Source: Alkalihalobacillus pseudalcaliphilus
Lineage (GTDB): Bacteria > Bacillota > Bacilli > Bacillales > Bacillaceae_D
Length of the DNA: 64,000 nucleotides
Reading direction: 5' to 3'
NCBI GenBank assembly: GCA_001038565.1
Contig: LFJO01000005.1
Location: forward strand, 75,217-139,216
How positions within the stretch are numbered: the first letter of the stretch is position 1; each line of letters starts with the position of its first letter. The position numbers were made by a program, and so were the translations under genes. The notes below the pieces were generated by a model, which was not told the origin of the DNA, did not search any database, and was given only the letters and a program-made list of their open reading frames with translations. Positions 41,725 to 44,620 of this stretch are shown here, one piece after another.

Positions 41725-43589
41725 TTAATAGTCTCCTTCAAGTCGTTTCATTAGTTCAGTCCACTTATACTCTAAATTCTCTTTCGTAGCATGTAGGTGT
41801 TGCATCTTCTCAAGGTCGTTTTCCTTTAGTAGTTTCTGTTCTAGTAATTCTATTTCATTCTCTAAAGTCTCAATGCTCTGTCCCAATTCATGATGATGGT
41901 TTAAAGTCGACTTATATTTATTTTGATGATCATGTTTAATCGGGATAGGTTGAGCTTTCTCATTCCGCATGATGGACTCCTTCATTTTCTCTTTCGCCCA
42001 GCTGTAGTTTCCTGGGAATTCATAGAGTTGTTGATCGTGAATCCAAGCAATTTTATGAAAAAGTTTATCGATAAAATAGCGATCATGTGAGACAGCTAGA
42101 ACGGTTCCTTGAAATGTTGATAGTGTATCTTCTAATACTTCACATGATTCAATGTCTAGATGGTTTGTCGGTTCATCAAGGATAAGAACGTTCATTTCCG
42201 TTTGCATAATGATTGCAAGGCGGAGTCGCATCTTTTCACCACCACTAAGAGATGATAATTTTTGAAAGACGCTAAAGCCATAAAATAAAAATTGAGCTAA
42301 TAGTGAGCGAGCTTCACCTTCAGTCACGTTGACATGCTCACGGAATTCCTCGATAACCGTTTTATTTGTATGTGCCACATATAATTTCTGAGATAAATAA
42401 GCTATTTTAACTTGGCTACCTAACTTTACTACGCCACTATTTGGTGTTAATTGACCTAGAATTAATTGAAGCAATGTTGATTTTCCCGTTCCATTGTCAC
42501 CTAATAAAGCGACGCGCTCGCCGTAACGAACGAGCAAGTTGACGTTAGAGAATAATAAGCGGTGTTCAAAGCTTTTCTCTAAGTCCGTGATCGTTATCAC
42601 GTCTTGACCACTTCGGTCTGTTGCTTGCAAGTCTAATTTTATCTTCTTATGTTCAAGGACGGGTCTATCAAGAAGCATTATTCTTTCGAGAGCTCTTTCC
42701 ATATTTCGAGCCCGTTTATGAAGCCCCTCATTAGGTGGGTTGGCTTGATTGGCCCAGATACGTAGCCGTTTTATTGCCTCTTTCATTTTTTTGATCTTCT
42801 TTTGTTGTTCTTGATAATTTTGAAATTCCTGCAATAATCGTTCTTCTTTTTCCTTGATAAATTGCTGATATCCACATGCGTAGGAGAGGAGCTTACCATC
42901 CTCTAAATCGAGTATTCGATTAACGGTTTCCTCTAAGAAATAACGGTCATGTGAAGTAATCATAAATGCACCGCTAAAACGATTTAAAAAAGTAGTTAAC
43001 CAATCAATGGCTTGTAAGTCTAAATGGTTGGTTCATCTAATAAAAGCAAATCTGGCTCAGTTAATAACACATGTGCTAGGGCCAGCTTCGTTTGTTCTCC
43101 TCCACTTAGACTTTGAAAAGGTTGCGTAAGGAGGTGGCTAATTTTTAAACCGGCAGCGACTTGTTCTATTTTAGAACGGATTTCATAACCGCCATGCGAA
43201 GTGAAATACTCCTGTAGCTCACTGTATTGAACAATTGTCTGTTCTAATCTTTGGCCGATTGTGTGACTCATTTCCTTTTCAAGCTCACTCATTTTCATTT
43301 CTATTTCTATTAGTTCCATAAACGCGGTCTCTAAAAACTGTTTACCATTCCCCATAAAAGTGGGTGATTGTACTTGTGATAAATAGGCGATTTTTGTATG
43401 TTTAGAAAAATGGATGGCACCATTATCAGGCGTTTCCTCTTGTGCGAGCATTTTTAACAGCGTGCTTTTTCCACTTCCATTCCTTCCAATCAGGCCGATT
43501 CGATCATGGGCCTTTATATCAAAACTAATCTCCTCAAAAAGGGGGTCACCCCCAAAGCTTTTTGATACTTGTTGTATGTGTCCGTACAT
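41725..43589 (-). pseudogene. ABC-F protein (ribosome-protection type), broken by a 4-bp deletion
   Basis: Two adjacent frames on the minus strand (43589-43020 and 42963-41725) make one ABC-F ATPase of 622 residues when 4 bp are restored. Domain 1 has Walker A GRNGSGKST, signature LSGGEQTK and Walker B LLLDEPT, where it breaks: the expected DEPTNHLDLQA coding CCAACCAACCATTTAGAC reads CCAACCATTTAGAC. Downstream codons in the new frame (DLQAIDWLTTFLNRFSGAF, then MITSHDRYF) continue perfectly. Domain 2 has GDNGTGKST, LSGGEKMR and LDEPTNHLD. The inter-domain linker and the leader attenuator fit the antibiotic-resistance ABC-F group (Vga/Vml/Msr-like), not a housekeeping EttA type. A slipped-strand event or an assembly error could explain the break. 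Confidence 0.88.
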
Positions 43590-43630
43590 TTTGATGTTCC
43601 TCCTAAGTTAAAGAACATCACCTCAAAAGA

Positions 43631-43663
43631 TAAAAAAGGTGAACGAATCAGAATTCGTTCACC
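43631..43663 (-). terminator. Attenuator terminator in the ABC-F leader
   Basis: GGTGAACGAAT / ATTCGTTCACC: perfect 11-bp stem, 4-nt loop, followed on the minus strand by TTTTTT. It ends 42 nt before the ABC-F ATG, so it must be bypassed for expression. A second GGTGAACG copy 29 nt upstream could compete for the 3' arm. Confidence 0.85.
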
Positions 43664-43739
43664 AAAAACGAGAGAACAAAAGGTTTTCCCCGTTCACCTC
43701 ATTCATATGTGGGTAAAGGTGATGCACTGATTGTGTCAT
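43659..43739 (-). CDS. Leader ORF 2 (26 residues) running into the attenuator
   Basis: ATG-TQSVHHLYPHMNEVNGENL-LFSRFW-stop. The TGA lies in the terminator's 5' arm (GG-TGA-ACG), so a ribosome finishing this ORF would cover that arm. No Shine-Dalgarno, but the ATG is 4 nt after the stop of leader ORF 1, suggesting reinitiation. Its role as a regulatory peptide is inference. Confidence 0.5.
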   Translation of the reverse strand: MTQSVHHLYPHMNEVNGENLLFSRFW

Positions 43740-43743
43740 TTGT

Positions 43744-43863
43744 TTATTTAGTTACTAAAAAAGGACAGATCTCTCCCTTTGTAACTAAAACAGCAAATTT
43801 TGCACGACAAACGAGCATAAATCTACTACGATTATCACGCACACAAACAGCTTGCTTACACAT
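43744..43863 (-). CDS. Leader ORF 1 (39 residues) upstream of ABC-F
   Basis: ATG after a GGGGGGTGTGGGAG site; the peptide is MCKQAVCVRDNRSRF, MLVCRAKF, AVLVTKGEICPFLVTK. The last 13 codons overlap a hairpin (TTTAGTTAC with GTAACTAAA, enclosing AAAGG/CCTTT). Strong binding site, position and tight coupling to leader ORF 2 argue it is translated as part of an attenuation control. It is not part of the ABC-F protein. Confidence 0.6.
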   Translation of the reverse strand: MCKQAVCVRDNRSRFMLVCRAKFAVLVTKGEICPFLVTK

Positions 43864-44340: not shown

Positions 44341-44361
44341 AGTCAAAATATTTCATAAATG

Positions 44362-44620
44362 CGTTGATGAGGAGTAGTAGGAAATGTAGTGGATTAAGAG
44401 AGCTGTTGGTTGGTGCAAAACAGTCATACTTCATTCTGAACTCGCCTTGAAGTAGCTTCATTGAATCTCAGTAGATGAAGCCGGTCCCTTACCGTTACTT
44501 AAGGAGGTAAAAGGATTATTCCTTTACTATCTGAGTGCACACAAATGTGTGAATAAGAGTGGTACCGCGTAGGATTTCAAGTCTTTCGTCTCTTCCAAGG
44601 AGACGGGAGGCTTTTTATAT
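44362..44620 (+). ncRNA. T-box leader, leucine specificity
   Basis: Contains the T-box core AGAGTGGTACCGCG (from about 44557) and the AG-rich stem I start GATGAGGAGTAGTAGG. The specifier loop CTGAACTCGCC gives codon CTC (44441-44443) for Leu. A terminator hairpin (CGTCTC / GAGACG core extended with G-T pairs, then TTTTTATA) lies at 44578-44620. Uncharged tRNA-Leu would favour antitermination and expression of the downstream 2-isopropylmalate synthase. Confidence 0.92.

Follow-up and report, generated by a model that had tools for sequence, protein, structure and literature searches.

The leader of Bacillus subtilis vmlR and those of lmo0919/rli53, cplR and lsaA resemble the leader described here in having an ABC-F gene as target and in switching by a uORF-dependent set of anti-antiterminator, antiterminator and terminator; they also share a pause hairpin with TTNTTT and a hairpin covering a Shine-Dalgarno sequence (PMC9226507, PMC10201436). 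Their uORFs are 3–4 codons long (MIN, MR[I/M], MK[L/Q] and MAGN), while the one discussed below belongs to a family of 31–45 codons with a conserved core. The leader of B. subtilis tlrB (yxjB) is alike in that a Shine-Dalgarno sequence is sequestered by RNA made later and in that a pause hairpin is needed; NusG-dependent pausing there lets the leader peptide start before this sequestration (PMC6851288). It differs in its nine-codon peptide, MIIQFIRYR, with an RYR motif, in its target, an rRNA methylase gene, and in sequence and structure. The bmrB leader of B. subtilis bmrCD contains a long ORF, of 53 amino acids, that overlaps the attenuator structures and is induced by ribosome drugs (PMC4191407); the likeness seen here is one of architecture, and the target is an ABC transporter. 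In the leaders of vmlR (PMC9226507), tlrB (PMC6851288), rli80/hflXr (PMC6310831) and bmrBCD (PMC4191407), the same logic has been demonstrated experimentally. In Bacillus thuringiensis an ABC-F gene is under a ribosome-dependent leader, the ribo-regulator RppA (Cai et al. 2021, cited in PMC10201436), which may be related. Listeria rliI was initially described as a small RNA with mRNA targets and is still listed as one in a review that also cites term-seq evidence for its acting as a conditional terminator before the ABC ATPase gene lmo2760 (PMC8079631).

The window, by which we mean the whole 64,000-nucleotide stretch of Alkalihalobacillus pseudalcaliphilus DNA that was analysed, contains a leader on the minus strand that runs from position 43863 to the start of an ABC-F gene at 43589. 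Very likely, this locus senses the ribosome and thereby attenuates transcription of an uncharacterised ABC-F gene, with a single uORF being functional and with the switching proposed below. The 311-nt leader folds into a structure more stable than its shuffled versions (z −4.9, 0/100). Its first ORF, uORF1 (43744–43863), has 39 codons, with the ATG at 43863, the stop codon at 43744 and the product MCKQAVCVRDNRSRFMLVCRAKFAVLVTKGEICPFLVTK; a Shine-Dalgarno sequence, GGGGGG (43877–43872), lies 8 nt upstream of the ATG. The 3' part of this sequence and the uORF1 AUG form the 5' strand of helix P1 (43860–43874), whose partner is the C strand (43711–43725). Within uORF1 lies a hairpin, H1 (43757–43777, GGGAGAGATCTGTCC followed by TTTTTT; family consensus GGGANNNGTNTGYCC followed by five or six T). 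Two terminator-like structures are predicted further downstream: T1 (43666–43704), followed by TTTTT, and T2 (43632–43663), an 11-bp stem at 43663–43638 followed by six T. A second ORF, uORF2 (43659–43739), has 26 codons from the ATG at 43739 to the stop codon at 43659 and spans the C strand and T1. In the minimum free energy structure a last hairpin, at about 43592–43620 (GATGTTCTT...GGAGGAACATC), covers the Shine-Dalgarno sequence of the ABC-F gene. The initial annotation had located uORF1, uORF2 and the 11-bp, T6 terminator, and all three are present on the minus strand where it placed them; it had overlooked T1, the hairpin over the ABC-F Shine-Dalgarno sequence, the sequence conservation of H1 and a frameshift in the ABC-F gene.

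For the comparative analysis we used 80 ABC-F orthologues from Bacillaceae-type genomes plus the genome of a sister species of the same genus, 81 loci together. A homologue of uORF1 is present in 79 of them, with the peptide core [FL]Y..RA[KI]F[AH] and the family consensus MLNQAVLVHGFWTEFLYFCRAKFAVLVVNGIRMPFFNN; the two loci without a recognisable uORF are L036 and L056, the latter labelled Bacillus subtilis. Selection on the encoded peptide is evident. Frame 0 of uORF1 is open in all 53 leaders compared and the other two frames in 5 and 21; among codons differing by a single nucleotide, the synonymous fraction is 0.45, against 0.20 for random changes. This constraint is seen in the N-terminal half, where third codon positions are the most variable. 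Conservation of the peptide is strong over codons 7–25, and alignment columns 21, 22, 24 and 31 hold an R, A, F and G, respectively, that are invariant or nearly so. The C-terminus and the stop codon vary widely among relatives: in two genera of one family the uORF ends just past the core (RAIFHDVA* and RAIFHGMAF*), with the RNA hairpin that follows retained. The initial annotation had proposed frame conservation as a check on its attenuator; the frame of uORF1 is kept across the Bacilli, so that lack of conservation does not count against it.

Searches blind to the ABC-F gene, with the rliI family and with a profile of the uORF peptide, gave the same association: this ABC-F gene follows immediately in 45/45 of the best loci, a set that includes the window itself and one genome twice. 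Twenty loci from the low-scoring tail of the peptide profile search were inspected; some, with E-values of about 0.005–0.01, are chance matches, and most lie upstream of an ABC-F gene and have diverged uORFs. In one group of loci (L141–L150 and L152–L156), CAITH, ANITH, AAITH or RAIIH replaces RA[KI]F in uORFs preceding the same ABC-F gene and H1 is almost unaltered; such diverged cores beside a nearly constant H1 give a hint as to which uORF residues matter. A search of plasmids for the uORF peptide returned no match.

These data bear on the idea that uORF1 simply encodes a functional small protein, with the RNA structure around it incidental. The strong conservation of codons 7–25 would fit; however, the C-terminus and stop codon are highly variable, uORF1 invariably lies directly upstream of the same ABC-F gene, and covarying helices enclose it, with terminators coming after. 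We regard this idea as very improbable.

The second ORF fares differently. In the initial annotation, uORF1 and uORF2 formed a coupled pair, and a ribosome slowed on uORF2 was to cover the 5' arm of T2 and so allow read-through. The geometry invites this reading, as the ATG of uORF2 lies 4 nt past the stop codon of uORF1 and its own stop codon falls within the 5' arm of T2. Yet no Shine-Dalgarno sequence precedes uORF2, the sister species has no ATG-initiated ORF of at least ten codons at this position, and the ORFs found there in other relatives are scattered, with start, length and frame not kept in the 79 loci; moreover, the stretch is taken up by conserved RNA strands, C and T1. The coupled uORF2 was dropped on these grounds of conservation, and masking of the terminator arm by a ribosome on it is highly unlikely. 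Lying across the C strand and T1, uORF2 has probably arisen by chance. What stands of the earlier interpretation is a uORF-dependent transcription attenuation of the ABC-F gene: the attenuator itself is real and the wrong ORF had been taken for the active one. The long, double uORF had also been called unusual, but neither a long leader ORF nor paired uORFs are unprecedented, given the bmrB leader ORF described above and the paired leader peptides ErmBL and ErmBL2 (PMC8274638).

A consensus fold of 26 leaders contains 55 base pairs, arranged as a three-way junction of helices P1, P2, P3 and P4 and the hairpin H1. In the alignment, 94% of the cells are paired, against 41–49% when the partners are slid; compensating changes occur at 14 pairs, and the covariation score is 0.177, against 0.04–0.06. 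RNAalifold applied to all 46 diverse leaders at once returned only 13 pairs, because the alignment breaks down at P1, and alignment class by class was then used. A test of co-evolution that depends little on alignment compares the pairing of strands from the same leader with that of strands from different leaders. It gave z −10.5 for P1 (0/5000 permutations), −8.4 for P2, −6.6 for P3, −10.4 for H1/P4 and −9.8 for T1, with controls near zero. When all pairs of sequence windows were scanned, a strong signal was seen only for P1, P2, P3, P4/H1 and T1, and a weaker one for the antiterminator. Helix P1, which closes the junction, sequesters the start site of uORF1 by pairing its Shine-Dalgarno sequence and AUG with the C strand; unlike in the vmlR-type leaders, the junction thus closes over the start of the uORF itself. 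The covariation of P1 and P2 supports an anti-antiterminator that overlaps the uORF. The proposed logic equals that of the leaders of vmlR, rli53, cplR, hflXr and bmrBCD, from which the present leader is set apart by the long conserved peptide, the junction closed over the uORF start and the ABC-F family.

Downstream of the junction, at least one terminator is present in 79/80 leaders and at least two in tandem in 59/80; T2 of the window on its own is more stable than shuffled sequences (z −5.4). Pairing of the C strand with the 5' arm of T1 is the expected antiterminator, because it is exclusive of both P1 and T1. In the scan of all pairs, C with the 5' arm and loop of T1 gave z −4.1, and a refined test gave z −2.8 (15/5000), with p < 0.05 in 30% of the leaders when compared with dinucleotide shuffles. 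Taken singly, neither the window nor either uORF class shows a significant pairing, and narrower windows, covering a simple pairing of C with the T1 stem, were negative. The putative antiterminator is therefore moderately supported, with the T1 loop included. The hairpin over the ABC-F Shine-Dalgarno sequence has little counterpart elsewhere: in relatives, 4.17 of the 6 nt are paired against 3.71 in shuffles, a slight excess, and a general Shine-Dalgarno-sequestering hairpin was rejected as a shared feature.

Combining these parts, a mechanism can be proposed. As P1 can only be completed once C has been transcribed, the ribosome has to start on uORF1 early. Known NusG-dependent pauses have a hairpin 11–12 nt upstream of the RNA 3' end, abutting a TTNTTT motif at 11–6 nt (PMC12288461). 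A hairpin abutted by TTNTTT is found in the window (TTTTTT) and in 41/53 leaders; the sister species has AATTTT after H1 instead. The geometry of this motif suggests that RNA polymerase would pause at H1, and the ribosome would gain time to start uORF1 before C is made. If the ribosome does not stall, it would complete uORF1, and C would pair with the uORF1 Shine-Dalgarno sequence and AUG; the closed P1 would block further initiation on uORF1 and act as an anti-antiterminator, so that T1 and T2 end transcription. A ribosome stalled in uORF1 and any further ones held up upstream of it would keep the 5' strand of P1 open; C could then pair with the 5' arm and loop of T1, and the ABC-F gene would be transcribed. 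This direction of switching is inferred from the parts and their pairing. The model proposes no antiterminator for T2. The stall would most likely occur at RA[KI]F or immediately beyond it, and the most likely inducers are antibiotics, one or more, that target the ribosome.

In a variant of this scheme, uORF1 would sense a general slowdown of translation, for example through ribosome defects or starvation, and not a drug acting on its particular peptide; RA[KI]F would then be kept mainly by pairing in P3. The CGT and TTT codons of the core are almost invariant, more so than the peptide demands, and P3 uses the same strand, so the conservation of RA[KI]F may in part be due to this helix; also, defects in ribosome assembly induce vmlR (PMC9226507). 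On the other hand, V7, G11, E15 and FLY are conserved outside the helices, with their third positions free, and the core survives where the remaining uORF diverges. We consider general sensing a possibility of some weight but rather unlikely, and prefer a peptide-specific stall.

The closest named RNA to the leader is rliI. The consensus of its Rfam family (RF01487) translates to MLLSNARTSTAKFLYIVRAIFSGIAVTLAKSAQKTA and encodes the core ...FLYIVRAIF... at the same place in the fold. Relatives of the leader align to rliI over its full length, at 20–39 bits against a gathering cut-off of 45, and no rliI match to the window was listed up to an E-value of 10. Overall fold and peptide core are shared; the loop of H1 is different. 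The literature searched reports no uORF in rliI, which is annotated as a small RNA. Following that annotation, the transcripts ending at T1 or T2 could simply be trans-acting small RNAs, as was proposed for rliI with its mRNA targets. The strict linkage to the ABC-F gene and the conserved uORF argue against this, as does the evidence from term-seq, cited in the review mentioned above, that termination ahead of lmo2760 is conditional, and we give such a role very little credence compared with that of a cis-acting attenuator.

H1 itself is conserved at the nucleotide level in the family. We searched for it with the pattern AMGGGANNNGTNTGYCCTTTTT (GGGANNNGUNUGYCC, then U5–6). It occurs in 101/399 Bacilli genomes and the reversed pattern in none, a control that guards incompletely against ordinary terminators. 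The pattern is rare outside the Bacilli: three of the five genomes matched in that search fall outside the class. The H1 of the window departs from the pattern by one letter (A for G), so the 101 genomes do not include that of the window. Eighty sites were inspected: 41 lie before the present ABC-F gene, 6 before Msr/Vga-like ABC-F genes and 4 before Cfr; Mef-like genes, RlmA-like genes and one MFS family account for three each, FexA for two, Mph and Erm for one each, and 16 sites are others. Two of the sites, in glycine (gcvT) riboswitches, may be ordinary riboswitch terminators. Leaders with H1 (L157–L240) also precede unnamed MFS and methyltransferase genes, and most of the leaders in this set have a uORF of their own. 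Several leaders with ErmDL-like uORFs (e.g., MTHSMRLRFPTLNQ), of the ErmDL/ErmK type, share H1, possibly by descent; these encode a short peptide with an RLR motif that ends upstream of H1 and lacks the long conserved core. The N-terminus of ErmDL is MTHSMRLR (PMC8298421).

H1-like hairpins are also found 3' of FMN aptamers and before ribD in two loci (L175 and L178, in the latter about 16 nt after the aptamer), where they are candidate riboswitch pause sites; NusG-dependent pausing is known at the FMN riboswitch of B. subtilis ribD (PMC12288461). In two further loci (L184 and L185, around 1420–1560 on the minus strand), RidA-like genes follow a conserved 21-codon ORF (MKKRAIRFLSMGIGFSTAVFF) and H1; these genes have no obvious link to ribosome drugs.

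The elemental pause signal consists of G-10, Y-1 and G+1. The conserved letters of H1 fit this signal provided that the U preceding the last G of the loop is the 3' end of the RNA; together with the TTNTTT motif of NusG, they would allow a single part to hold the polymerase for a ribosome or a ligand. No description of the H1 motif was found in the literature searched. From these patterns, we put at about even the chances that H1 serves as a portable element, conserved in sequence, at which RNA polymerase pauses, and that it does so in the leaders of many ribosome-drug resistance genes of the Bacilli and also in FMN riboswitches.

The ABC-F gene of the window is interrupted. Its ORF starting at 43589 stops at 43020 after 189 codons (43020–43589, minus strand), within the Walker-B/D-loop motif DEPTNHLD, and continues in a different frame from 42963 (41725–42963, 412 codons). 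Compared with relatives, the sequence is 4 nt short, in the context of a short direct repeat, and 78/80 relatives are intact at this place; either a true mutation or an assembly error may be responsible. With its target frameshifted in this strain, the attenuator may act on a gene that is no longer intact. A closer second copy of the ABC-F gene was sought in the genome and none was found, the next best match having 37% identity. Members of the family have about 625 amino acids; the general model for "ribosomal protection-like ABC-F" proteins, NF000355, is the only one that intact relatives pass, and they fall below the cut-offs of the curated resistance subfamilies (Vga, Lsa, Msr, Sal, OptrA, CplR and others). 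VmlR2 was considered for its similar length and rejected, as relatives align to it only in part, with scores no higher than those against EttA. At curated Rfam thresholds, the only match in the window is a T-box leader (RF00230, 124 bits) at 44355–44596 on the plus strand, which precedes a divergent gene (44693) for a product resembling 2-isopropylmalate synthase; weaker matches are due to chance.

If the proposed attenuator is correct, the uncharacterised ABC-F family found across the Bacilli would be a ribosome rescue factor inducible by drugs or stalling, and Listeria rliI, long annotated as a small RNA, would be the leader of an ABC-F gene and contain a reading frame that had escaped notice. 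The peptide core conserved in uORF1 is a candidate for a new natural ribosome-stalling sequence. Should the role suggested for H1 also hold, this hairpin would be a single cis element tying polymerase pausing to ribosome sensing, and its sharing among leaders would provide a simple sequence signature for inducible resistance genes in the Bacilli.
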